A stretch of DNA of 64,000 nt from Antrihabitans stalactiti. Lineage in GTDB: Bacteria; Actinomycetota; Actinomycetes; Mycobacteriales; Mycobacteriaceae. The translations under genes and the position numbers were made by a program. Position 1 is the first letter of the stretch. Each line of letters starts with the position of its first letter. The notes under the pieces were generated by a model that saw nothing but the letters and a program-made list of their open reading frames with translations, made no database searches and was not told the origin of the DNA. The stretch spans positions 310,001-374,000 of the forward strand of contig NZ_VCQU01000001.1 of NCBI RefSeq assembly GCF_012932915.1, written 5' to 3'. Positions 1,225-55,561 of the stretch are shown here, piece after piece.

Positions 1225-1847
1225 GTCGACGCTCGCTCCCCGCGGAATATTTCGATCGGTTGTACGCCGACCACGACGACCCATGGAGCTTTGAGACGCG
1301 CTGGTACGAGCAACGAAAGTACGCGCTGACGCTCGCCGCGTTGCCGCAACGCCGCTACCAGCGCGGACTCGAGCCGGGATGCTCGATCGGAGTTCTCACC
1401 GAACACCTAGCCCGTCGCTGCGACGAGGTCGTCGCGACCGATGTCGTCCACTCAGCTTTGAACCGAACCCGCGAGCGGATTCACGCGTCCGATGCCGACG
1501 GCGAGGTCGATGTTCGCTCGTGGGCCTTGGGCTCGAAATGGACCCTGGGACGCTTCGACCTCATCGTCCTCAGTGAGGTCTGCTATTACCTCGATGCGCA
1601 AGCTCTTTGCCGCGCAATCGAAGACGTCGTAAAGCAGCTCGAACCGGGCGGCACCCTGATCTGCGTCCATTGGCGCCACGAAGTGGCCGACTATCCACTG
1701 TCCGGTGACGCGGTCCATGCGATCGTGCGAGTTGCGTGCGGCCTGACGAAGGTGAGCGCGTACTCCGACGAGGACATGCTGATCGACGTCTTCACCGCCG
1801 GCGACAAGGCGACCTCGGTTGCGACAGCCGAAGGTCTGGTCGAGTAG
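1221..1847 (+). CDS. SAM-dependent methyltransferase, NodS-like
   Basis: A 208-residue class I methyltransferase. After PAEYFDRLYADHDDPWSFETRWYE, typical of NodS-like proteins, comes a glycine motif in a variant form (LEPGCSIGVLTEHLA, about residues 49-63), the acidic strand end VVATDVV, and the FDLIVLSEVCYYL strand. NodS methylates deacetylated chitooligosaccharides, which fits the PIG-L deacetylase just upstream; the actual acceptor is unknown. Its ATG at 1221 overlaps the PIG-L stop. It ends four bases before the convergent STAS gene. Confidence 0.88.
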   Translation: MSRRSLPAEYFDRLYADHDDPWSFETRWYEQRKYALTLAALPQRRYQRGLEPGCSIGVLTEHLARRCDEVVATDVVHSALNRTRERIHASDADGEVDVRSWALGSKWTLGRFDLIVLSEVCYYLDAQALCRAIEDVVKQLEPGGTLICVHWRHEVADYPLSGDAVHAIVRVACGLTKVSAYSDEDMLIDVFTAGDKATSVATAEGLVE

Positions 1848-1850
1848 CGG

Positions 1851-2261
1851 TCATGGGTTGGCGAGGCGGTCTTTGCAGATCCGCAGGGCGTCTTCGCGAC
1901 TGCCGCACAGTTCGAAGACGGTATCGAGCCCGGTCAGTTGGATCGGACGACTGGTCGCCCGACCGTTGGCCACAACCGCGAATGGGATGTCGGTGGCCCT
2001 CCGACTCGCGTTCACCAACACCGCCATCCCCGCGGATGCAAGAAATTCGACATCGGACATGTCGATGATCAACGCTGCCGGTCGGGTATCGAGGGCGGAA
2101 TCGACTGCATCCTGAAACGCGGCTGCAGTCAGCAAGTCGAGGATCCCGGCAACCGCCAAGATAGTGGTCTCGTCGATCACGATCGTCGACGTCGTGAGGT
2201 CGTCAGCCGGTATGCGCTGACGCGCGGCGCGATCGTTCGAGGAATTGCCTGGGGTAGACAC
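1851..2261 (-). CDS. STAS-domain anti-sigma factor antagonist (paralog 1)
   Basis: A 136-residue single STAS domain protein of the SpoIIAA/RsbV kind, which binds anti-sigma kinases when its conserved Ser is unphosphorylated. The core is LAVAGILDLLTAAAFQDAV followed by [17 protein letters not shown]; the Ser of FLASAGM aligns with the phosphorylatable Ser, but the preceding residue is Ala where many homologues have Asp. It starts at GTG 2261 with GGGAGG nine bases upstream. Two close paralogs lie at 4655 and 24812, sharing FLASAGM and IPFAVVA. It is divergent from an ANTAR protein. Probable role: general-stress (SigF-type) signalling; the partner is unknown. Confidence 0.88.
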   Translation of the reverse strand: MSTPGNSSNDRAARQRIPADDLTTSTIVIDETTILAVAGILDLLTAAAFQDAVDSALDTRPAALIIDMSDVEFLASAGMAVLVNASRRATDIPFAVVANGRATSRPIQLTGLDTVFELCGSREDALRICKDRLANP

Positions 2262-2569
2262 TACGAACCTCCCGTCGTGATCGATGTCGATCGCAGCATC
2301 GGCTCGTCGGTGTCACGCACATTTACCGGGCGCACGCTGCTGCGAGGTACGGCTGTGGGCTCAACCGGGGTATTTTCTAGCATAGCCAGTGTGGACTGTA
2401 CAGACATAAGGCGTTCCGCCGTCGCGGTATTCGCGTCGATTCGCCCGCGCTGCAGCAGTGGCGGCTGCCGTCGAACCAACGAAGGTCCGGTAGACTGAGT
2501 TCTAGCTATCCGGTCCAGCAGCGCGGCCTTCTCAAGGTAGATCGTTGCTTTCCTTCGACTGGAGCGCCT
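2262..2569. other. 308-bp divergent intergenic region
   Basis: This spacer separates the divergent STAS and ANTAR genes and must hold both promoters. The ANTAR gene has GGAG at 2561-2564, five bases before its ATG. A minus-strand open frame crosses the region and ends in a TAG overlapping the STAS start codon, but its composition is unconvincing (see rejected items). GGGGTA near 2368 resembles a SigF -10, but I see no good -35 partner. There is no clear hairpin. Confidence 0.4.
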
Positions 2570-2944
2570 ATGACGTCGCCGCATGGTTCAGAGTCCGACG
2601 ACGCGGACGTACTCTCATCTGCCAGCGCGCTGCTTGGGCGGCTGTATCGGATGCGCCCGGACCAAGCGTTCGACACACTCCTCGATGCGGCAATGCGACA
2701 CCACCTGAGCCCTGTTCAGCTCGCTCGGGGGTTGCTCGAACTGGCGGCGGACGCTCAGCGCTCCGTAGCCACGATGTGTGCGCCGGTCGCAGCGGCATAT
2801 CAGCAATGGGGCCGCGTGCTCGACGACGGATTCGAGACCGCTCGCCGAGCAACGCCACGAAGCCTCGCCACGATCATTTCGCGGCGAGGCTCCGATTCCG
2901 ATTCGACGTCGCCCGAGGAGGACACTCCCACCCTCGCGGGCTAG
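2570..2944 (+). CDS. ANTAR-domain protein
   Basis: A 124-residue protein whose first 70 residues match the ANTAR RNA-binding fold: SALLGRLYRMRPDQAFDTLLDAAMRHH, then LSPVQLARGLLELA, with the Ala/Leu spacing of the three-helix domain. ANTAR proteins bind paired hairpins in nascent RNA and prevent termination. No receiver or GAF domain precedes it, so it is a stand-alone ANTAR protein; the remaining 55 residues are Ser/Arg/Asp-rich and probably disordered. The neighbouring STAS genes suggest a stress-response role. Its target RNA is not identifiable here. Confidence 0.8.
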   Translation: MTSPHGSESDDADVLSSASALLGRLYRMRPDQAFDTLLDAAMRHHLSPVQLARGLLELAADAQRSVATMCAPVAAAYQQWGRVLDDGFETARRATPRSLATIISRRGSDSDSTSPEEDTPTLAG

Positions 2945-2974
2945 CTGCGGGCTATCCCGCAGTCGGCTGATCGA

Positions 2975-4495
2975 TCAAGCCTTCTCCTGCATGCTCGTTC
3001 GTGCGGGATTGCCCTGCTCATCGACCTTCGGATCCGGCTGATCCGCTTTCGCGCGCACTCCCTGCTCGATCTTGTCGCCGAGCGACTTGTCGACCTTGCG
3101 CCAGTAATCGAACGCGCGGAAGAGCACCGGTTCGGACACACCATTCAGCAGATGACCAACGATGTTGTCCACCAACCGTTCCCGAGCAGCGTCGTCGAGC
3201 ACGTCGCGGACCAGCGTGCCGGGCTGGCCCCAATCGTCGTCTTCGCGGTGCGAAACGTACGCGCTGCGCGCGATCTCACCTTCGGAGTACCAGCCAGGGT
3301 CGCGGAAGTTCTCGGTATCGGCACTCGGCCCACCCTTCGAATTGGGCGCGTAGACGGGGTCGGACACCTTCTCGTACCGCATCGCCCCGTCCTTGCTGTA
3401 GCTGTTCACGGGGGATTTCGACGCGTTCACGGGCAGCTGCCTGTAGTTGGCACCGATGCGATGGCGATGCGCATCGGAATACGAGAACATCCGCGCGAGC
3501 AGCATGCGATCGGGACTCGGACCGATGCCGGGAACCAGATTGTTCGGTTCGAACGCCGCCTGCTCGATCTCGGTGTGATGGTCCGTCGGATTGCGGTCCA
3601 GCGTCATGCGGCCGACCTCGTGCAGTGGATAGTCACTGTGCGGCCACACCTTGGTGAGATCGAACGGGTTGAATCGGTAGTCGGCAGCCTCGTCGAACGG
3701 CATCAGCTGGACGAACAGCGTCCAACTCGGATGATCACCACGGGCAATCGATTCGAACAGGTCGCGCGTGTGGTAATCGGTGTCCGCAGATGCCATTTGA
3801 TCGGCTTCGTCCTGCGTGAAGAATTCGACTCCCTGATCGGTCTTGAAGTGGTACTTCACCCAGAACCGTTCGCCGCTGGCATTGACCCACATGTAGGTGT
3901 GCGACGTGTAGCCGTTCATATGCCGCCACGTCCGCGGAATGCCACGATCGCCCATCAACCACGTGACCTGATGCGCGGACTCGGGAGACAACGTCCAAAA
4001 GTCCCATTGCATATCGTGGTCACGTAAGTTGTTGTCCGCGCGCCGTTTCTGCGAGCGAATGAAATGCTGGAACTTCAACGGGTCCTTGATGAAGAAGACC
4101 GGCGTGTTGTTGCCCACCATGTCGTACACGCCTTCGGTGGTATAGAACTTGATCGCGAAGCCTCGCGGATCGCGCCAGGTATCCGGGCTCCCTCGCTCCC
4201 CCGCAACCGTCGAAAATCTGACCACGAGATCAGTGGCGACACCGGGCTGAAAGAGCGCCGCGCGGGTATACGCACTGACGTCTTGGGTCACTTCGAAATG
4301 ACCGAATGCACCACTACCTTTCGCATGCGGCTGACGCTCCGGAATTCGCTCCCGATTGAATTGCGCCATCTGCTCGATCAAATAGTGGTCCTGCAGCAGG
4401 ATCGGCCCGCCAGGGCCGACAGTCAGCGAATGTTCGTCGCTGCCCACCGGGATTCCTGCGTCGGTAGTGGTCGAGTTGAAATTGCTATCTGCCAT
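2975..4495 (-). CDS. katA: Heme catalase (small-subunit, clade 3 type)
   Basis: A 506-residue monofunctional catalase (2 H2O2 to O2 and water), cytoplasmic. Visible active-site features are the distal His in [10 protein letters not shown] (about residue 57), the Asn in [10 protein letters not shown] (about 129-130), the heme-contact stretch [14 protein letters not shown], and the proximal Tyr in [14 protein letters not shown]. The ATG at 4495 was chosen from AGGAG seven to eight bases upstream and from family length; an 85-residue upstream open extension has no catalase similarity. A SigF-like promoter lies 36 bases upstream. It is divergent from STAS paralog 2, consistent with oxidative/general stress control. 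Confidence 0.96.
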
Positions 4496-10473: not shown

Positions 10474-10500
10474 TGTGCTTCTCCGATCTACACGAGGGGT

Positions 10501-10542
10501 CGTGAGTCTTTTAGGAGTCCAGGGACTCCTAAAAGACTCACG
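10501..10542. repeat. 42-bp palindromic repeat, copy A
   Basis: Two perfect 20-base arms (left arm CGTGAGTCTTTTAGGAGTCC) around a central AG. It lies 18 bases after the formate dehydrogenase stop and upstream of the FUSC gene. The nonamer ACGAGGGGT occurs directly at 10492-10500 and again at 10540-10548 overlapping the right end, as if part of the element had been duplicated. Related copies are at 16349, 21836, 46316 and 55503. Confidence 0.9.
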
Positions 10543-10559
10543 AGGGGTGGGGGGTCGGA

Positions 10560-16332: not shown

Positions 16333-16348
16333 GCTAATACACCTCGGT

Positions 16349-16390
16349 CGTGAGTCTTTTTGGAGTCCAGGGACTCCAAAAAGACTCACG
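16349..16390. repeat. 42-bp palindromic repeat, copy B
   Basis: Same element as copy A, but the arms read CGTGAGTCTTTTTGGAGTCC and the complement: the A-to-T change in the left arm is matched by T-to-A in the right arm, so pairing is kept. It sits between two divergent genes, upstream of both, which does not fit a simple terminator. It creates false start codons (peptide MSLFGV) for both flanking frames. Confidence 0.9.
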
Positions 16391-16481
16391 AGGGCGGGTG
16401 GTCACGCCACCGACACTCGACGGCCGTGCTGCCCTCGTGTACATTCTGAACCATGTTCATATTGCACACCGTGGTGCAGGG

Positions 16482-21777: not shown

Positions 21778-21835
21778 CACCGGTAAATACCCGAACTGGA
21801 CAAGGTCGAAACCTTGCACCACCACCACCGACCCT

Positions 21836-21877
21836 CGTGAGTCTTTTAGGAGTCCAGGGACTCCTAAAAGACTCACG
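21836..21877. repeat. 42-bp palindromic repeat, copy C
   Basis: Identical to copy A in the 42-bp core. The palindrome extends five more bases on each side (ACCCT and AGGGT), giving 25-base perfect arms from 21831 to 21882. It lies nine bases after the stop of the minus-strand DUF445-like gene, so it could end that transcript, although no T-run follows. Confidence 0.9.
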
Positions 21878-21886
21878 AGGGTTGGT

Positions 21887-23311
21887 TCACGCTCCGAAGA
21901 TCAAGATGTGCACTGCGCCAACGAGGATTCCGAGTAAGCCACCGTGGGCATAGAGCAGCCAGGCGTCCTGTTCGATCGCCGAGAAGAGCATTTCACCGAA
22001 GTCGTCGGGCGGCAGTTCACGGAATTTCGCGGTGGCGAAGGTATCGATGGCTTTCGCCTTGTCCGCATTCAACTCTGGGCTGTACAGCACCGCTGGAGCG
22101 AAATCGACGACTGCCAACCCGGCACCCCGCTCCAGGCCCTCGACATCGACGAAACCGAAGGAATTGCGTGCCATCACCATGAACGGCCCGAGTATCCGCT
22201 CAGCCTCCTCGGCGACCGCTTCCTCGACGTAGGCCCGCGTCTTGTCCGCGCCCGCGCCGTTCAGCAGTTCGTCGGTGAAATTCGTGACCGTCAACACCTC
22301 GACGGACAGCATCTGCGCAAGTTCTGCGGACGCCTCGTGCTGCCGTTGCGCGAACAACCCTTGCTTCCACAAATACTTGTAGCGCGGCTGTGGTTCGCCA
22401 GGTTCGAACACCACCTTGATCGCGATGATGTTGACGATGATGCCGATGATCGCGGCGCCGACAAGCACCCATAACCAGCTGGGTAGGAAGTGGAGAATCG
22501 AATTCAGGATGCCGGGCAATTCGATGTACGCCGCGCTCGGATCGAGTTCGTGAGCGTGCTTGACGTGGTCGCTGCTGTAGTGCAGCAACGACAGCCACAG
22601 CGCGAGGATGACGCCGAGCGGCGCGCCGAGCAACCCGATGCGGACCATGAACCGAAGCTCGGGAACGGCCATGCCCTTGATGATCGAGACGAGGACGTCG
22701 GGCCGCTTGCGTAGGTAGTTGACGGTCATCAACTTCACATCCAGGAGCTGATCGATGTTCTCGCCGATCTTCTTGAATGCGCGTTTCGACAGCGCTGGCA
22801 GATCGTCGTCGACCGTCCGCATCACCTGTTCCTTGACCGGATACGGCAGCGTGCTCCACAACTGCGGGTGCTGCTTTTCGATGACCTCGGTGGTCAACCG
22901 ACGGATATCGGGACGGGCGGCGTTGGCGATGGTTTCGGCGAGACTGTCCGGGTCGAGCTCGTTGTAGAAATCTCCGATCCCGCCGATGCGATAGATCGAT
23001 TTGTCGACGATCAGACTCGACATCTTCTCGGCACGACAGGGAATGAATCCCTGGAATCCGAGAATTCCATTCGGTGCGAACGTCGGAAGGATCTGCAATT
23101 TCCTTGGCAGGAAAGGAAATATCCTTTTCAGACCGGGGACGTAGAACCCGGTGAAATGAACGGGAGCGAACAACATGATCACGCCGGTCCAGTTGGTGAT
23201 GAGACCCGCGAAAGCACTGAAAATCGGGATGCTGACGAGGTCGACGACGAATTTCGACTGCCCCGTCAATTCTTCCCAATTGAGGAACAGCCCGGCAGCA
23301 ATAGTGGCCAT
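21887..23311 (-). CDS. DUF445-like membrane protein (cassette 1)
   Basis: A 474-residue membrane protein. Hydrophobic segments are near residues 20-50, 225-250, 275-305 and at the extreme C terminus (AHGGLLGILVGAVHILIFGA). An N-terminal conserved block has LITNWTGVIMLFAPVHFTGF and GILGFQGFIPCRAEKMSSL, the latter matching the DUF445 theme where the protein turns back after the first helix. It is nearly colinear with the 474-residue paralog at 41355 and, as there, follows an Abi-alpha-like gene by 43 bp. Function unknown; the family is linked only loosely to membrane stress. Confidence 0.75.
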   Translation of the reverse strand: MATIAAGLFLNWEELTGQSKFVVDLVSIPIFSAFAGLITNWTGVIMLFAPVHFTGFYVPGLKRIFPFLPRKLQILPTFAPNGILGFQGFIPCRAEKMSSLIVDKSIYRIGGIGDFYNELDPDSLAETIANAARPDIRRLTTEVIEKQHPQLWSTLPYPVKEQVMRTVDDDLPALSKRAFKKIGENIDQLLDVKLMTVNYLRKRPDVLVSIIKGMAVPELRFMVRIGLLGAPLGVILALWLSLLHYSSDHVKHAHELDPSAAYIELPGILNSILHFLPSWLWVLVGAAIIGIIVNIIAIKVVFEPGEPQPRYKYLWKQGLFAQRQHEASAELAQMLSVEVLTVTNFTDELLNGAGADKTRAYVEEAVAEEAERILGPFMVMARNSFGFVDVEGLERGAGLAVVDFAPAVLYSPELNADKAKAIDTFATAKFRELPPDDFGEMLFSAIEQDAWLLYAHGGLLGILVGAVHILIFGA

Positions 23312-23354
23312 GTCAATTCTCGATATCTCTCATCGGTGGATGCTCGGACAGAGA

Positions 23355-24077
23355 TCAGTGCTTGTGCAACTTCGGCTTCGGAGGTCCGGACCCGATCGTC
23401 CTGTCGCCGCGTTCGTGTTTGTCCCACCCGCCCGCCGTGTATCCGGTCATGTCGAAACACGCGTCGCAGAACTGCCTGCCGAACTCCGACAATTCGATGC
23501 TGCGATAGATGCTGATGGCGGACTTCACGCTCTCGATCGCCGCCATCGCGCGCGGCTGTACCTCGAGTAGCGAGTACCTTCGGAAATCCTCGACCGGCTC
23601 GGTCGAGAACCTGACGATTCCGAGCCGTTCGAGATTGACGAGGTAGTGCTGATCGCGGTCCGGCCAGCGGCAACTGGACATCTCCGCGATCAGGTTGATG
23701 CCTGCGGCAAGGCGCTCGGAGCCGATCTGGAACAGCGTCTTGGTCCGAATATCGATGGCCGGTTGCACGCCGGCCTTGCCAAGGAAGCGCACGATTCGAG
23801 CCTCGTCCGGATGCAACTGGTCGAGGATATGTGTGAACGCGGGATGCCGTCCGCCCGCTTCGTAATCCGGCTTTTGTGACATTGCGATAAGCCTGGCGCC
23901 GTAAGCGCGAAGGTCTGCGTCGTGTTTGTCTTCGACCGGGGTCGATTCCCCTTTCGACTCGGCCGACTTTTCGGTCGACGGTCGGTCGCCGAGCAGGTCG
24001 ATCGCCTTCCAGACACCTGCACGAGCCACGTTGCCCAGCGATCCCCGAACCGACTTGGATTCACCGTCACGCGTCAT
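23355..24077 (-). CDS. DUF4393/Abi-alpha-like protein (cassette 1)
   Basis: A 240-residue soluble protein. The central part matches the Abi-alpha (DUF4393) pattern: RHPAFTHILDQLHPDEARIVRFL at about residues 77-99 followed by QPAIDIRTKTLFQIGSERL and a winged-helix-like LVNLERLGIVRFS. Abi-alpha proteins were first linked to phage abortive infection. The first 55 residues are charged and likely flexible; the tail is GSGPPKPKLHKH, also present in the paralog at 42822. It is co-transcribed with the DUF445-like gene. Defence function is not shown. Confidence 0.7.
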   Translation of the reverse strand: MTRDGESKSVRGSLGNVARAGVWKAIDLLGDRPSTEKSAESKGESTPVEDKHDADLRAYGARLIAMSQKPDYEAGGRHPAFTHILDQLHPDEARIVRFLGKAGVQPAIDIRTKTLFQIGSERLAAGINLIAEMSSCRWPDRDQHYLVNLERLGIVRFSTEPVEDFRRYSLLEVQPRAMAAIESVKSAISIYRSIELSEFGRQFCDACFDMTGYTAGGWDKHERGDRTIGSGPPKPKLHKH

Positions 24078-41354: not shown

Positions 41355-42779
41355 TCAGGCTCCGAAGATCAGGATGTGTATCGCGCCCACGATGATGCCG
41401 AGGAGGCCGCCGTGTGCGTAGAGGAGCCACGCGTCCTGTTCGATTGCGGAGTACAACATTTCGCCGAAGTCGTCCGGTTTCAACGCGCGGAACTTCTCGG
41501 TGGCAAAGGTTTCGATGGCTTTCGATTTCTCTTTGTTCAGCTCGTCGCTGTACAGAACCGACGGCGCGAAATCGATGACGGCGACGCCAGCACCTCGCTC
41601 CAGTTCGTCGACATCGACGAAGCCGAATGAATTCTTTGCCATCGTCATAAAGGGTCCGAGGATCCGATTCGCTTCCTCGGCGACCGCGGCCTCGACGTAC
41701 GCCCGCGTCTTGTCCGCACCGGACCCGTTGAGCATTTCGTTCGTGAAGTTGGAAACCGTGAGGACCTCGACGGAAAGCTGCTGCGCGGTCTCGGCTGCGG
41801 CTTCGTGCTGGCGACGCGCGAAAAGGCCCTGTTTCCAAAGGTATTTGTACCGCGGCTGGGGATCACCTGGTTCGAATACCACCTTGATCGCAATGATGTT
41901 GACGATGATTCCGATCATTGCACCGCCGAGCAGCACCCACAGCCAAGCCGGGAAGAAGTGCAGAGCAGAGTCCAGGAACCCCGGCAAGGCGATGTAGGCG
42001 GCACTGGGATCGAGCTCGTGTGCGTGCTTCGCGTGCTCCCCGCTGTAATGCAGGAACGACAGCCACAGCGCGAGAATCACGCCGAACGGCGCGCCGAGCA
42101 TGCCGATCCGGACCATGAACCGCAGCTCCGGCACCGCCATGTTCTTGATGATCGACACCAGAATGTCAGGGTTGGAACGTAGGTATTGGATTGTCATCAA
42201 TTTGACGTCGAGGAGCTCATCGATATTCTCGCCGATCTTCTTGAACGCCCGGCGAGACACCGCGGGCAGCTCGGCGTCGACGACATCCATGACCTGATTC
42301 TTCACCGGACCAGGCAGCGTATTCCAGAGCGCTTTGTGTTCTTTCTCGATCACATCGGTCGCCAGCCGCCGGACATCTGGGCGTGCCTTCTCGGCGATGG
42401 AGTCAGCAAGGGCGTCAGGGTCGAGTTCTTTGTAGAAGTCGGAAATTCCGCCGATCCGATAGATCGCCTTGTCGACGATGATGCTCGCCATTTTCTCGGC
42501 GCGGCATGGGATGAAGCCCTGAAATCCGATGATGCCGTCCGGTGCCCAGCACGGAAGAATCTGGAGCTTGCGCGGCAAGAACGGGAATATCCGTTTCACC
42601 CCCGGCAGATAGAAGCCGGTGAAATGGATCGGCGCGAGCAGCATGATCACGCCGGTCCAGTTGGTGATCAGGCCGGCGAATGCGCTGAAGATAGGAATAC
42701 TGATGAGGTCGACGACAAATTTCGACTGACCGGTCAATTCTTCCCAGTCGAGGAACACCCCCGCGGCCAAAGTGGACAT
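41355..42779 (-). CDS. DUF445-like membrane protein (cassette 2)
   Basis: A 474-residue paralog, exactly as long as the protein at 21887 and colinear without gaps by eye; most residues are identical, for example WEELTGQSKFVVDL and PRYKYLWKQGLFA. TM segments are at the same four places and the C terminus ends in VGAIHILIFGA. It follows the Abi-alpha-like gene by 42 bp and precedes a universal stress protein. Function unknown. Confidence 0.75.
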   Translation of the reverse strand: MSTLAAGVFLDWEELTGQSKFVVDLISIPIFSAFAGLITNWTGVIMLLAPIHFTGFYLPGVKRIFPFLPRKLQILPCWAPDGIIGFQGFIPCRAEKMASIIVDKAIYRIGGISDFYKELDPDALADSIAEKARPDVRRLATDVIEKEHKALWNTLPGPVKNQVMDVVDAELPAVSRRAFKKIGENIDELLDVKLMTIQYLRSNPDILVSIIKNMAVPELRFMVRIGMLGAPFGVILALWLSFLHYSGEHAKHAHELDPSAAYIALPGFLDSALHFFPAWLWVLLGGAMIGIIVNIIAIKVVFEPGDPQPRYKYLWKQGLFARRQHEAAAETAQQLSVEVLTVSNFTNEMLNGSGADKTRAYVEAAVAEEANRILGPFMTMAKNSFGFVDVDELERGAGVAVIDFAPSVLYSDELNKEKSKAIETFATEKFRALKPDDFGEMLYSAIEQDAWLLYAHGGLLGIIVGAIHILIFGA

Positions 42780-42821
42780 GTCATTCTCGCATCTGTTGAT
42801 GGTGGGTACTGGAAGCCGACA

Positions 42822-43874
42822 TCAGTGCTTGTGCTTCGGCTTCGGCGGTCCAGAACCAAGGATCTTGTCGTGGCGACCGTCGGTATCCCAGCCACCGGCG
42901 TTGTAGCTGGTCATGTCGAAGCAGATCTCAGCGAATTGCCGACCGAATTGAGACAGGTAGATGCTGCGGTAAATGCAGATAGCAGATTTCACCGACTCGA
43001 TAGCGTCCATCGCCTCGTCTTGTACCTCGAGCACCGAATACCGGCGGATGTCCGCGACAGGCTCCGCCGAGAAGCGAACCAGCCCCAGCCGATTGAGATT
43101 CGCGAGGTATTCCCGACCTGCCTTCGGCCATCGACAACTCGCCTGCAGCGCAATGAGGTTCACACCACCGAGAATCCGTTCCGAGCCGATCTGAAACAGC
43201 GTCTTCGTGCGGATATCGATCGCGGGTTGCACACCGGCCTTGTAGAGAAACCGCACGATCCGGGCTTCGTCGGGGTTCATCTGCTCGAGGATGTATGAGA
43301 ACGCCGGATGCCTACCGCCGAATGTGTAGTCGGGGATTTGCGACCGCGCGATGAGTTTCTCACCGCGCGAGCGCAGTGCATCATCTGAATCTTCCTTGCC
43401 CGGAAGGAGTCCGCCCACAGAGCCGGCGACGTTCTTCACCACGCCCGGCGACTCCGACACCCAGCGACGTGGATCCAATGCGGACCGTCGTTCGCCGTCG
43501 TTACCCGCGCTCGATGGTGCGATGTCGGTCAGCGTCTTCCAAATACCGCTCGCAGCGACCTTTGCCGATGCCGCCGACGCAACGACATCGGATGCAGCGC
43601 CAGCGAGTTCGTTGGAGCCCAGCGACTTTACGGTCCGGGTGGCCGACTCTTCGTCCTCCCGCGCTCGCTCGCTGAAGTTGGTCAGCGCCGTCCATAGGCG
43701 TCTTCTGGCTGAATTTGCAGATTCGACTGCGTTGACGATTCCCTCGACTGTATCGACCCCGAGTGATGCAACCGGCCTGACTTTTTCGCCGACAGCGTCG
43801 GCTGCTGTGCCGAATTCGTGCACTGCCTGGCGGAACGACTCGCCTGCCGTTTTCGAATCCCGATCTTGTGCCAT
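42822..43874 (-). CDS. DUF4393/Abi-alpha-like protein (cassette 2), N-terminally extended
   Basis: A 350-residue protein. Its C-terminal 190 residues match the 240-residue paralog at 23355: RHPAFSYILEQMNPDEARIVRFL, then AGVQPAIDIRTKTLFQIGSER, and the GSGPPKPKHKH tail. The first 150 residues are an Ala/Ser/Glu-rich helical extension (AVHEFGTAADAVGEKVRPVASL) absent from the paralog, possibly coiled coil. ATG 43874 has AGGGAG upstream. It lies 70 bp after the Mce ATPase gene on the same strand. Confidence 0.7.
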   Translation of the reverse strand: MAQDRDSKTAGESFRQAVHEFGTAADAVGEKVRPVASLGVDTVEGIVNAVESANSARRRLWTALTNFSERAREDEESATRTVKSLGSNELAGAASDVVASAASAKVAASGIWKTLTDIAPSSAGNDGERRSALDPRRWVSESPGVVKNVAGSVGGLLPGKEDSDDALRSRGEKLIARSQIPDYTFGGRHPAFSYILEQMNPDEARIVRFLYKAGVQPAIDIRTKTLFQIGSERILGGVNLIALQASCRWPKAGREYLANLNRLGLVRFSAEPVADIRRYSVLEVQDEAMDAIESVKSAICIYRSIYLSQFGRQFAEICFDMTSYNAGGWDTDGRHDKILGSGPPKPKHKH

Positions 43875-44960: not shown

Positions 44961-45197
44961 CTACCTTCTTCGACGCGTTCGTGCTTTGACAGTGTTGGCT
45001 CGGGTGCATATCGCGCAGCGGCAACCACTTTCGTAGGCCGCGCTGCTGCCGTGTCGCCCAATCGTCCTGCCCTCCGAGCGCAGGCGAATGATGTAGTGCG
45101 CGTGCTGGATACGGTTGGCATCCCGACAACGTGGGCACCGGCAGCCGAGGTTGATATAGCCGTTGATTGTTCCGTGGCGGGGATCGTCGGTACGCAT
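44961..45197 (-). CDS. Cys-rich protein with two GCRC repeats
   Basis: A 78-residue basic protein built from two similar halves: HGTINGYINLGCRCPRCRDA and HGSSAAYESGCRCAICTRA. Each half has a CRC..C cluster with a preceding His, suggesting one small zinc site per repeat or a shared site. Similar HG...Y..GCRC..C proteins are scattered in actinobacteria and their phages; function unknown. Its ATG overlaps the stop of a 28-residue ORF (TAATG), inside the mce operon. Confidence 0.65.
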   Translation of the reverse strand: MRTDDPRHGTINGYINLGCRCPRCRDANRIQHAHYIIRLRSEGRTIGRHGSSAAYESGCRCAICTRANTVKARTRRRR

Positions 45198-45283
45198 TAC
45201 GGCGGGGGTAGTTGTCCGCGGAACAATAGGTACGCAATCGCTTTCACGATGTATTCGATCGGTCCGACGAGGTCGATGATCAT
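45197..45283 (-). CDS. Micro-ORF, 28-residue hydrophobic peptide in the mce operon
   Basis: ATG 45283 to TAA 45197-45199 encodes MIIDLVGPIEYIVKAIAYLL plus FRGQLPPP, one amphipathic or membrane helix ending in three prolines. AAGGACG lies about nine bases upstream. The stop overlaps the start of the Cys-rich gene (TAATG), so translation is probably coupled. It follows the Mce-associated gene by 13 bases. No family is known to me; such peptides often act as membrane-complex subunits. Confidence 0.45.
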   Translation of the reverse strand: MIIDLVGPIEYIVKAIAYLLFRGQLPPP

Positions 45284-45296
45284 GGCTGAGTCGTCC

Positions 45297-45857
45297 TTAC
45301 GCCGGGTCGAACTTCGAGACGAGCCAGGTATCGCCGTGGCGCTCGACTTCGATCCGAAGGGTGGTGGAGGTGACCGTCGGCTGGGCGATATCGGCGGTGG
45401 ACGTCGACTGGTTCAGGAACACGACAACCGACGCTCGGTCGGCACTGAATTCCGAAATCGACTTGCCGACAACGGTTGCCGACGTGCTGATCTTCTTCTC
45501 TTTCGCCGCCGGGGCGACGACGTCGCGGGTGAACGTCTTGTAGTAGTCACCGAACGTGCCGGTCACCCGGCTGTTCGCAGCGGCGAGGTCGGTGTCGACG
45601 GTGTCGGACTTGTAGCTCAAGATCGCGACCGCGGCGTCGGCGGCCGCGTCGACAGCGGCTTGCTGTCGGTCCGGTGCCAGTGCCTGGTCGTCGGGGCGCA
45701 CGACCAAGAACAGGTACGCCCATCCGGCGACCGACGCTGCCGCGAGCAGTAGGACGAGCAGCGACCGCACGCTCTCCCAGTTTCGACGCGGCGGCGGCTC
45801 TTCGTCGATGATCTCGTCGATAACGATCGTTTCTGGTTCCAGCTCTTGGGTTTTCAT
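45297..45857 (-). CDS. Mce-associated membrane protein 2
   Basis: A 186-residue Mas protein: an acidic N-terminal tail (EPETIVIDEIIDEEPPPRR), one TM segment at about residues 33-52, then an NTF2/SnoaL-like extracytoplasmic domain with AAADAAVAILSYKSDTVDTD and the C-terminal RIEVERHGDTWLVSKFDPA. Such proteins follow mceF in many operons and stabilise Mce complexes. It overlaps the preceding Mas gene by four bases. Confidence 0.9.
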   Translation of the reverse strand: MKTQELEPETIVIDEIIDEEPPPRRNWESVRSLLVLLLAAASVAGWAYLFLVVRPDDQALAPDRQQAAVDAAADAAVAILSYKSDTVDTDLAAANSRVTGTFGDYYKTFTRDVVAPAAKEKKISTSATVVGKSISEFSADRASVVVFLNQSTSTADIAQPTVTSTTLRIEVERHGDTWLVSKFDPA

Positions 45858-46378
45858 GCGACGAAATCCACCTTCGACATCTTGTACTGGCCGCCGTCGT
45901 CGGTCATGGTGACCCGCAATCGCCAACTTCGGCTCTCGTTGTTCGCGCCGGCCGCATTCGACACCGACGATGTTGCCGACACCAGGACCGTCGCCGAATC
46001 GCCATCGCGGCTCTCGATACCTTCAGCGACGACCTGCCCTTGCGTGACAACCTTTGCCTGTTGCACGATCCCGATGAACGATCGCGATCGAGCCTCGAAG
46101 TCCTTCTTGAACGTGCCCGTGGACAGGTCCAGCACCTTGTTGACATCGTCGGCGGCGGAACTGTCGCGAACCGAGATCATGGCGGTGACACCGGAATTGG
46201 CGGCGCTCAGTATTGCCGCGTCTTGGCCGCGTTGATCCGACGCGTCGTGGTGATCGCGCAGCAATACACCTGCGAATGCGGTGAATGTGGCCGCCACGAT
46301 GATCAAGACAACGCTCGTGAGTCTTTTAGGAGTCCAGAGACTCCGAAAAGACTCACGAGGGGTGGGTAACAGCTTCAT
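45854..46378 (-). CDS. Mce-associated membrane protein 1 (contains a palindromic repeat in frame)
   Basis: A 174-residue Mas protein: one TM segment (SVVLIIVAATFTAFAGVLL, about 22-40) and a C-terminal domain ending RVTMTDDGGQYKMSKVDFVA. ATG 46378 lies three bases after the mceF stop. Residues 8-21 (RESFRSLWTPKRLT) are encoded exactly by copy D of the 42-bp palindrome, which is 14 codons and keeps the frame. Without it the protein would read MKLLPTP joined to SVVLI, a normal N-terminal tail and TM helix, so the repeat looks inserted. Confidence 0.88.
   Translation of the reverse strand: MKLLPTPRESFRSLWTPKRLTSVVLIIVAATFTAFAGVLLRDHHDASDQRGQDAAILSAANSGVTAMISVRDSSAADDVNKVLDLSTGTFKKDFEARSRSFIGIVQQAKVVTQGQVVAEGIESRDGDSATVLVSATSSVSNAAGANNESRSWRLRVTMTDDGGQYKMSKVDFVA
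46316..46357. repeat. 42-bp palindromic repeat, copy D (inside a coding sequence)
   Basis: Matches copy A except for two changes in the right arm (G to A at 46338, T to G at 46345). It lies within the start of the Mas gene, in frame, just before the TM-segment codons. The uncompensated changes suggest that coding constraint here outweighs hairpin pairing. Confidence 0.85.
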
Positions 46379-46380
46379 GA

Positions 46381-47580
46381 TCAATTGCCTCCGATGGGTG
46401 GGTTCGTGCCGAGCGGGAAAGAACCGCCTTTGCGGCAATCGGCAACATCGGCCGCGCTGACGCCCGGGATTTCAGCGCACGGAAAGTTGCGCGCGCCGCG
46501 AACGACGAAGGGGTCGCCGTCGGCGACAGCGCAGTAGTTCGGTGTCTGGCTGTCGACGATCGTGGGATCGGCGGGCGAGCGGCGCTGGTCGGCCGGAACG
46601 AACCCGGTCAGGCACGGCGGAGGCGCATTGATGTCGAGGTTGAAGTCGAGATTGACCATGCCAGGCTTCGCACCCTTGACCACGCTTTGTGCGCCGGCGA
46701 CCAACGGCGGATAAACGACGAGGATCTGTTCGAGGCTCATGTGATAGATCCGCAGCACGTCGGCGACCGAGTTCAGATTCCCAAGGGCGGTCGGCAAAGT
46801 CGGCGCAATTCGGTTGAACAGGTCCGTACCTTCGGCGCCCGCGTCAGGACCGTTGTCCAGCAGTCCCCGCACCGCCGCGTCGTTGCTGGCCACCGAGGAG
46901 GTGACCAGGTCGAGGTAGTGGGTCCATTCGCGGATGCTGCCCGCGGACTGAATTTGGGTGTCCAGCAGCGGACCGGCGTTGTCGATCAAGTTCAGCGTGG
47001 GCGCTAAGTTCTTCTGCCCCTCGGCGAGGAACTTGTCCAGCCCGTCGAGGATTTGCTGCAAGTTGTTGCCGGAGTTGCGGAATGCGGTGCCGCTCTCGTT
47101 GATCAACAGGTGCAGATCGTCTCGCGACACGTCTTTCAACGCCAGTTCGACCGAGTCCACCATGTCGGCGGTCGAGGTCGGGACCAGTGTGCTGTCGATC
47201 CGGTCACCATCGGCCAGATACGGACCCGAATCGGTTCTCGGCAGCAACTCGATGTACTGCTCCCCGATGGCCGAGCGGCTGTGCACTTCGGCGGCCAGGT
47301 CGGTCGGGATGTGCAGGCTGTTGTCCAGATACATCGTGACGACGACCTTGTCGCCCTCGATGCGCAGATCGTGCACGGTCCCGGCGTGCACACCCCGGTA
47401 GGTGACGTTCGACTTCGGGTAGAGACCGGCACCGGAGGGCAGCACGAGTTCGACGGTGTTGCGCCCGAGTCCGAGCATCGACGGCACGCGCATGTACGAG
47501 ATCGCGATCCAGGCGATGAACACCACGGCGATGACCGCGAACGCACACAGTTGGTAGCGAACGAATTTGGTCAATAGCAT
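46381..47580 (-). CDS. mceF: MCE family protein MceF
   Basis: A 399-residue Mce protein: an N-terminal TM anchor (about 10-30), then the MCE/MlaD domain (NTVELVLPSGAGLYPKSNVTYRGVHAG) and a long helical region. The last position in the MceA-F row and the C-terminal Pro/Gly/Cys-rich tail (PCLTGFVPADQRRSPA) fit MceF. It forms part of the periplasm-spanning lipid channel. The start codon shares its first base with the mceE stop (TGATG). Confidence 0.93.
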   Translation of the reverse strand: MLLTKFVRYQLCAFAVIAVVFIAWIAISYMRVPSMLGLGRNTVELVLPSGAGLYPKSNVTYRGVHAGTVHDLRIEGDKVVVTMYLDNSLHIPTDLAAEVHSRSAIGEQYIELLPRTDSGPYLADGDRIDSTLVPTSTADMVDSVELALKDVSRDDLHLLINESGTAFRNSGNNLQQILDGLDKFLAEGQKNLAPTLNLIDNAGPLLDTQIQSAGSIREWTHYLDLVTSSVASNDAAVRGLLDNGPDAGAEGTDLFNRIAPTLPTALGNLNSVADVLRIYHMSLEQILVVYPPLVAGAQSVVKGAKPGMVNLDFNLDINAPPPCLTGFVPADQRRSPADPTIVDSQTPNYCAVADGDPFVVRGARNFPCAEIPGVSAADVADCRKGGSFPLGTNPPIGGN

Positions 47581-48695
47581 CAGTTGCCCCCTGGGCCCGG
47601 GACGTTCAGCGGAGTGATCAGCGGGTTGCCGGTGATCGGCGGGATCGGCGGCAGTTGCCCGATCAACCCCCCGAGGTTGGCCAACATGCCTGCGGCAGGC
47701 GTGCCGGTGAGCAACGCGGTGTCGACTCGCTTCGTGGTCAGGTCGAGGTTCAAGAACAGATTCGCGTAGTCGCCCTGCATCGCGTTCTTGTAGGTGTTGA
47801 GCGGGAACGGGATCGTCGCCAGGAACGACAGCGACGACGGCAACGCCGGGCCGGCATCAGCCAACCCGCGCAGAGTCGGCTCCAGCGCACGCAGATTGGT
47901 ATCCAGTTCCGTCCTACTACCCGTGATCACCCGGTCGGCCGCGCCGGCGAAATCGCCGATCGCGTTCAACGCACTGGTCAGGTCGGCCCGCTGCGCGTTG
48001 AGCGTGGTCAGCGCCGGATCCAGGGTCTTCAACCCGGCCTCCACCACGGCACGGTCGTCGGAGACGATCTTGGAAAACCGGTCCAGTCCCTCGAGAGCGC
48101 GGATGATGTCGTCGCGTTGATCGTTGAGGCGACTGGTGAAATCTTCGATGTTGCTCAACAGATTTCGGACCACATTTTCGCGTCCGGCCAAGGCCTGGTT
48201 GACTTCGCGGTTGATCTCGTCGAGTTTGCCTGCACCACCGCCGTTGAGCAAAAACGACAACGTCGACAACGTCTGCTCGGTGGTCGGGTAGGCGCCGCCA
48301 CGATCCAGCGGAATCCGGTCGCCGTTGTGCAGTTCACCCTTCGCGTCGGTGGGCCGCAACAATTCCAGGTGCGCGGAACCGAGCAGGCTGGTCGACCCCA
48401 CCTTCGCGGTCGTATTCGCAGGCAGCGTCACTTCCTTCTCCAACGTCACCGTCACCAAGGCGTGGTCGTTTTCCACTTCGATCTTGCGGACGGTCCCCAC
48501 GTTGACGTCGTCGACGCGCACGCGGGCGTTCTCGGTCAGCGTCGACACGTCGGGCATCTCGACATTCACCGTCCACGCACCTTCACCCTCGCCTGCGGCA
48601 CCCGGCAAGGCGAACTGGTTCAGGCCGGTCCAACCGCAACCGGTCAACGAACCGGCAAGTACGAAGGTGCACAAAGCAATTGCGGTTCGTCTCAT
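47580..48695 (-). CDS. mceE: MCE family lipoprotein MceE
   Basis: A 371-residue Mce protein with a lipoprotein signal: MRRTAIALCTFVLAGSLTGC, lipidated Cys20, as in Mce1E/LprK. The MlaD domain (about 43-120) has NARVRVDDVNVGTVRKIEV. ATG 48695 overlaps the mceD stop; a long upstream extension in the same frame lies in mceD and is rejected. Confidence 0.94.
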   Translation of the reverse strand: MRRTAIALCTFVLAGSLTGCGWTGLNQFALPGAAGEGEGAWTVNVEMPDVSTLTENARVRVDDVNVGTVRKIEVENDHALVTVTLEKEVTLPANTTAKVGSTSLLGSAHLELLRPTDAKGELHNGDRIPLDRGGAYPTTEQTLSTLSFLLNGGGAGKLDEINREVNQALAGRENVVRNLLSNIEDFTSRLNDQRDDIIRALEGLDRFSKIVSDDRAVVEAGLKTLDPALTTLNAQRADLTSALNAIGDFAGAADRVITGSRTELDTNLRALEPTLRGLADAGPALPSSLSFLATIPFPLNTYKNAMQGDYANLFLNLDLTTKRVDTALLTGTPAAGMLANLGGLIGQLPPIPPITGNPLITPLNVPGPGGN

Positions 48696-55323: not shown

Positions 55324-55502
55324 CGTGGACGTAACTCCCGTTCTTGAAACTGCAAGAGCCGACACGAGATTCGTGAATCGGGGCAATCGGAGGTTGTTAC
55401 TGAGGAGTCTTCCGCCGGTTCAGGTGCGGAGCAACGGAGCCTTCCCCGAACATTTCGGACATGCATTGGAGTGCGCTCCAACGCGCATTTCCACACAAAA
55501 AA
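55324..55502 (-). promoter_or_regulatory. Probable promoter region of the mce operon with palindrome
   Basis: This spacer must drive the mce operon. At 55466-55481 TTGGAG, four bases, CTCCAA is a perfect 6+6 inverted repeat; with flanks GCATTGGAG/CTCCAACGC it forms a 22-bp site with one mismatch per arm, suitable for a TetR/GntR-type repressor. A second repeat, CACGA-GAT-TCGTG, is at 55363-55375. No regulator gene is adjacent. Confidence 0.5.
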
Positions 55503-55550
55503 GCACTGTGAGCTTTCAGGAGTCCAAAGACTCCTGAAAGCTCACAGTGC
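55503..55550 (-). terminator. Intrinsic terminator of the Rieske operon (palindrome copy E)
   Basis: Two perfect 22-base arms (left arm GCACTGTGAGCTTTCAGGAG plus TC) around a CAAA loop, 12 bases after the Rieske gene stop and, on the minus strand, followed by six T residues. This is a complete rho-independent terminator. Its stem core shares GTGAG, CTTT and AGGAGTCC with repeat copies A-D, with compensated changes. Confidence 0.85.
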
Positions 55551-55561
55551 AGCTGGAGCGA

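Follow-up and report, generated by a model that had tools for sequence, protein, structure and literature searches.

REP elements with RAYT are short palindromes present in hundreds of copies, mostly extragenic and placed at 3' ends, with a GTAG at the foot of the palindrome. Mycobacteria have a set of near-identical terminators; our literature search, which mostly covered what can be read outside subscription journals, did not find such a set. In pneumococcus, SPRITE is a small dispersed hairpin with an 18-bp duplex, which the accessible portion of its description (PMC3049150) proposes to have been co-opted as terminators. Rickettsia palindromic elements are about 150 bp long, and nearly half of them lie in ORFs according to the available sections of a review (PMC10969869). 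Cod-2 of Corynebacterium diphtheriae is 32 nt long and is classed as genic in the available text of its source (PMC2267715). Here we describe a 44-nt palindrome that is read in frame at the start of a membrane protein gene of Antrihabitans stalactiti. The same search turned up no publication on the repeat for either Antrihabitans or Rhodococcus, and the family of gene-end hairpins to which it belongs is apparently undescribed.

The palindrome at the start of mas

The palindrome occupies positions 46315..46358 of the window, the whole 64,000-nt stretch of DNA that was analysed. Its sequence, TCGTGAGTCTTTTAGGAGTCCAGAGACTCCGAAAAGACTCACGA, is a near-perfect 44-nt palindrome with no strand of its own, with arms of 20 + 20 nt, a 4-nt centre and two unpaired positions. 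RNA transcribed from the strand of the host gene is predicted to fold at -32.4 kcal/mol (z -7.46), with 0 of 200 shuffles equal or better. The palindrome pattern has four matches in the window as compared to none in 100 shuffles; the palindrome is not due to chance. All four copies fold as stable hairpins (-32.4 to -47.8 kcal/mol, z -6.4 to -12.4). The other three, likewise without strand, are found at 10500..10543 and 21835..21878, lying 16 and 8 nt past a stop codon, respectively, with codirectional genes on either side, and at 16348..16391, where the genes on either side are called divergent. The 46315..46358 copy is bordered by a G-rich flank on the plus strand (46359..46367, GGGGTGGGT) of a type common beside family copies, as judged from 100 copies for which orientation was picked by G content, a choice that inflates the asymmetry. 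On the opposite strand this flank reads ACCCACCCC and lies within L-P-T-P codons.

Several other features of the window were noted. A divergent relative of the palindrome, also without strand, lies at 55501..55552 between two minus-strand genes; it keeps the core GGAGTCC...GACTCC and has other outer arms (CACTGTGAGCTTTC...). Two regions, 21887-23856 and 41355-43320, are direct repeats about 19.5 kb apart, with 71-78% identity over neighbouring genes. An Rfam search over the window returned no family at gathering score, and a known Rfam family was rejected on this ground.

The host gene is mas (45854..46378, minus strand), predicted to encode a Mce-associated membrane protein of 174 aa, in which an N-terminal tail is followed by a TM helix. 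The protein matches no Pfam family, no NCBIfam family scores above cut-off, and the putative name follows its operon position and homologues. It adjoins an MCE-family gene (46381..47580, minus strand; MlaD 59.2 bits, TIGR00996 210.2 bits), which we take to occupy the mceF position. The mas ORF begins with the ATG at 46376-46378, and a GGAGG at 46388..46392 (minus strand), 9 nt upstream and inside the end of the MCE gene, is its likely ribosome-binding site. Sequence and ORF confirm the original prediction that 14 codons of the palindrome (46316..46357, minus strand) are read in frame as residues 8-21 of Mas (RESFRSLWTPKRLT), and its placement of the peptide just before the TM helix was also supported. 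The hairpin starts at nucleotide 21 of the ORF.

Copy number, pairing and placement of the family

Searching the host genome (G000) with the 40-nt core of the palindrome produced 202 matches at three mismatches or fewer, the mas copy among them, while a reversed control produced none. We fetched 151 of these 202 copies, from lists that favour the consensus, so that the uniformity given here is an upper bound. Thus, the 50 copies taken from the listing of the 202 matches are all exact, exact matches being ranked first, and the remaining lists consisted of matches without mismatch or of the best BLAST matches. Within this sample, 105 copies agree with the 44-nt consensus at every fixed position, 29 have one difference and 17 have two, and 142 fit the core pattern exactly. 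The 151 copies represent 33 variants of the 40-mer, the two commonest accounting for 37 and 35 copies (72 together). By our own arithmetic most of the 202 should be exact, because C1-C3, which make up about one quarter of the genome, already supply the 50 listed exact ones. Some copies, among them those in L122, L127, L138, L139 and L143 and the mmpA copy in L142, were reached with the Mas protein as query, an approach that favours the RESF frame.

The two unpaired changes of the mas copy correspond to pairs 12:29 and 19:22 of the core, which are also the positions that the search patterns left free. These pairs are non-Watson-Crick in 37 and 41 of the 151 copies, respectively, whereas each of the other 17 pairs is Watson-Crick in at least 149. 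The exact mas variant occurs in three of the 151 copies, and the other two, C1:631298 and C1:736594, are found where gene ends converge. The unpaired changes had been taken as a sign of selection on the peptide; because they fall on the variable pairs of the family, and because the same variant is found at gene ends, they are uninformative in this respect and the argument does not hold.

Evidence for conservation of pairing is partial. In G000, pair 12:29 covaries, with 114 of 151 copies Watson-Crick as compared to 59.9 expected if the two sides were independent, and pair 19:22 does not (110 versus 107.2 expected). Comparison with relatives included 33 hairpins from G001 and 25 from G003, drawn from among the matches listed. 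Pair 17 is T-A in 149 of the 151 G000 copies and G-C in 29 of the 33 G001 hairpins, so that pairing is kept while both sides differ, and pair 12 is G-C in 24 of the 25 G003 hairpins. Several pairs are loose in these relatives: pairs 8 and 18 are paired in 18 and 13 of the 33 G001 hairpins, and pairs 11 and 13 in 10 and 12 of the 25 G003 hairpins. The outer pairs (1-5 in G001, 1-8 in G003) were fixed by the search patterns and are hence no evidence of pairing.

Placement relative to genes was determined for 147 copies, four of the 151 having been dropped as too close to the end of a segment; gene calls for this classification came from our own codon-usage model. These copies comprise 77 between convergent genes, 56 between codirectional genes, 11 between genes called divergent and three inside a called gene. 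The convergent share greatly exceeds that among gene pairs without a copy (77/147 versus 71/560, Fisher p about 1e-22). Where a gene end faces the copy, 110 of 133 copies lie within 15 nt past the stop codon and 123 within 30 nt; 404 of 20000 random 44-mers fall within 15 nt past a stop (first 81 segments). Codirectional copies are mostly (48/56) closer to the upstream stop than to the downstream start. The copy's own TGA, part of the terminal TCGTGA, serves as the stop codon of a gene in 41 of the 147 cases, and on both sides in six. The 11 copies called divergent were counted against a gene-end reading, and placement after stop codons is equally expected of a neutral parasite. The mas copy, separated from the stop codon of the MCE gene by 22 nt, is a slightly distant yet ordinary case of this placement.

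Related genomes and copies read as protein

Palindromes of the form CTCGTGAG-N-CTCACGAG number 94 in G000 and 118 in G001; G002 and G003 have none, and the remaining 57 of the 61 genomes have 0-2 apiece. G003 has a 40-nt family of its own (GTGCGCGG...CCGCGCAC) with a similar GAGTC...GACTC centre, for which we found 43 matches as compared to two for the reversed control. The G003-type pattern was also found in another genus, with 27 matches in G023 versus none for the control. Within the G003 family (GTGCGCGGTT...GAGTC....GACTC...CCGCGCAC), two arm types seem independently assorted, which would give rise to the mismatched pairs 11 and 13. G045 and G041, from other genera of the same family, contain additional 40-nt GTGCGCGG hairpins whose cores are different, a hint of a wider class.

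We sought 14 gene-end pieces in G001 and G003 and took ten counterparts in each (49-99% identity, weaker matches excluded); several gene names, sigma factor and similar, are our own reading of the sequence. Four of the ten G001 counterparts (C21:439621, C1:858221, C3:167415 and cobQ) have an element of the G001 type at the corresponding gene end (segments L288 of G001, L270, L280 and L282). Positions may thus outlast sequence: either the position was kept with a concerted change in sequence, or insertion was repeated at the same ends. None of the ten G003 counterparts shows the element, as expected from the genome-wide lack of these palindromes in G003. At one gene end, which we read as that of a sigma factor, strong, unrelated hairpins are present in G001 and G003 (-36.1 and -28.9 kcal/mol), and among 16 element-free ends in relatives a hairpin of -28 kcal/mol or better is nearby in four and absent in 12, as counted with no shuffle control. 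Two gains look like plain insertion: the stop-to-stop gap is 51 nt here versus 11 nt in G003 at C1:827639, and 45 nt versus 4 nt at C21:439621. No target-site duplication is evident at these two clean empty sites, where the relative used for comparison is diverged. A comparison of junctions over 1.37 Mb of relatives (1.17 Mb of G003, 0.2 Mb of G001) provided three orthologous pairs.

Searches with the Mas protein gave matches in 27 of 41 genomes, its own included. Its closest relatives are a syntenic orthologue in G003 (75% identity) and two paralogues (71% and 64%), and all three are without the 14-residue peptide. The original prediction that the palindrome came from outside mas is supported by this orthologue and by the 202 genome copies, the latter ruling out a palindrome born within the gene. 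The expectation that orthologues would lack exactly these 14 residues is upheld for the sequence of the peptide and fails for its length, as far as one orthologue and two paralogues can tell. Mas has 42 residues ahead of a conserved HH as compared to 39, 40 and 43 in the three relatives, and taking away the peptide would leave 28 by subtraction; native tail is therefore missing at the site of the palindrome, contrary to the proposal of a simple 14-residue gain whose removal restores a normal short tail. The distance from the MCE stop to the mas ATG is 2 nt here versus 49 nt in G003. The palindrome thus stands where native sequence has been lost, in one step or two. Insertion followed by later deletion and one-step replacement both fit, since the sole orthologue is 75% identical.

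Four of the 147 copies run through a gene, namely the mas copy and the three identified by the gene caller, and in all four genes (mas, mmpA, the GT87 gene and cobQ) the frame stays open. The copy at G000:C20:574397 lies inside a 555-aa MmpA-family protein (NF053599, 625.9 bits; a trehalose-lipid delivery protein by NCBIfam), encoded at 1500-3167 of segment L142 (G000:C20). This copy, which turned up when the Mas protein served as query and so in a frame-favouring search, specifies 14 residues identical to those in Mas and, like the mas copy, precedes a TM helix. Orthologues of mmpA in G003, G001 and G002 do not have the palindrome, and the stretch between anchors YALA and PDL is 31 residues long here and 29, 37 and 36 residues long in the orthologues. 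The mmpA copy, too, replaces native loop, with no net gain of 14 residues. Between mas and mmpA, the codons for the peptide differ at three nucleotides, all synonymous, two of which fall at positions variable across the family. The remaining two copies are read through only at the C-terminus: a GT87 glycosyltransferase carries RESFRSPGTPKRLT in its C-terminal tail, ending in RESFRSPGTPKRLTTPGSRGQ, and CobQ carries the repeat in another frame.

Proposed role and comparison with known systems

We lean towards reading the repeat as a lineage-specific, terminator-like, dispersed family of gene-end hairpins of Antrihabitans, with the mas copy tolerated as a basic juxtamembrane peptide. The unit is a stem-loop of 40-44 nt, usually located no more than about 15 nt past the stop codon of a gene, and often where two genes converge. 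TCG-TGA at both ends lets it supply a stop codon on either strand, and it most likely acts as a bidirectional terminator-like 3'-end hairpin. This role is suggested by position, hairpin stability, partial pairing evidence and stop codons on both strands. There is no T-run after the mas hairpin, and region 45000-48000 has no terminator-like sites; the family flanks are G-rich rather than T-rich (100 copies), at odds with the U-rich tract of SPRITE-like terminator repeats. As no U-tract follows the stem, termination is an inference. In mas, a copy would have landed just beyond the stop of the preceding MCE gene, and as the mas ATG follows this stop by 2 nt, it falls within the mas N-terminus. 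Such a copy may survive since translation passes through it in an open frame and yields a basic juxtamembrane peptide. With the hairpin so close to the start of the ORF, ribosomes on mas should hold it unfolded, so that the operon need not stop there.

A neutral or selfish MITE/REP-like repeat without a role, accumulating at harmless sites after stops and between convergent genes and leaving in-frame copies as rare survivors, is possible, though to our mind rather unlikely. Placement alone would fit it, and the available text of PMC3049150 reads convergent enrichment in this way for BOX, RUP, SPRITE and IS. The G000 copies are as uniform as after a recent burst, and the lack of a T-run, like the loose pairing at several of the variable pairs of G001 and G003, is also consistent with such a repeat. 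The covariation at pair 12:29, the differences between species on both sides of pairs 12 and 17, and the G001-type copies at shared gene ends speak against it, as do the lack of a Y1 transposase match and, with a diverged relative for comparison, the absence of a visible target duplication at either clean empty site. RAYT-driven REP was ruled out, because the Y1 (RAYT) transposase profile PF01797 matches none of the four genus genomes, as compared to 5/14 in the control. A phage or plasmid origin, as far as searched, was also rejected (no stretch with the pattern in viral contigs, no match in plasmids). The gene-end hairpin that we favour can be extended to a portable cassette, an idea we regard as speculative and unlikely: a 44-nt stop plus hairpin for both strands would spread without transposase by templated copying (for example conversion or repair between palindromes), sometimes replacing local DNA, and would be homogenised per species, with persistence of some positions; where it is in frame, as in mas and mmpA, translation would gate the hairpin and the peptide would double as a juxtamembrane linker.

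Two other explanations concern the reading frame. The original prediction drew a parallel to Rickettsia palindromic elements (RPE), that is, a protein-coding palindrome spreading in frame into ORFs with its peptide under selection. Such a reading is encouraged by mas and mmpA, both membrane-protein genes, in which the same frame of the repeat gives identical residues ahead of a TM helix with only synonymous differences, and by the GT87 tail. We nevertheless consider it highly improbable: just three of the 147 copies are inside a called gene, two of these being mere C-termini, and the mmpA copy came from a search that favours its frame. In addition, most of the mas-mmpA differences are at family-variable positions, and native residues are missing in both proteins. 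Alternatively, mas might start downstream, at a TTG or GTG in the TM segment, leaving the palindrome merely intergenic between the MCE gene and mas. The codon-usage gene caller written for this analysis did choose GTG 46297, downstream of the palindrome, and the family is mostly intergenic. Such a start would, however, cut the TM helix, and no good ribosome-binding site was seen ahead of the later starts. We prefer ATG 46376 because of the GGAGG and because the N-terminal MKLLP is common to the orthologue, where it is at different codons; a downstream start is thus quite improbable.

If the gene-end hairpin reading is right, one lineage has about 200 instances of a uniform, self-contained gene-end signal that combines a stop codon and a hairpin for both strands, and related species have versions of it with sequences of their own. 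It would then become testable how actinobacteria end transcripts without U-tracts, and also how a 44-nt repeat spreads without RAYT and how a gene-end signal turns into protein sequence. This replaces the simpler story of an in-frame insertion of 14 residues in mas.

Compared with known systems, the Antrihabitans family is unlike REP/RAYT in having no conserved GTAG flank (100 copies) and no Y1 transposase in the four genus genomes. With Rickettsia elements, as the available sections of the review (PMC10969869) describe them, it has in common only the in-frame reading of a palindromic repeat in unrelated genes; it differs from them in its length of 44 nt, in the small number of copies that run through genes (4/147) and in the native residues missing in the two internal cases. 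Cod-2, from the accessible text of PMC2267715, sets a precedent among actinobacteria for a very small stem-loop repeat within coding sequences, whereas the Antrihabitans family is mostly extragenic. Paired DNA uptake sequences, in the part of their description available, are also inverted repeats thought to be terminators; in Antrihabitans the whole 44-nt palindrome is the unit. SPRITE, according to the available text of PMC3049150, is AT-rich, has a long U-rich tract and is rarer (15 upstream and 15 convergent in the table), and the Antrihabitans family, with 202 copies, differs from it in lacking a U-tract, in carrying a stop codon at each end and in having a few copies that are translated in frame. 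In behaviour, SPRITE is nevertheless the closest of these systems, being likewise enriched between convergent genes and near the 3' ends of coding sequences in that portion of the same source.
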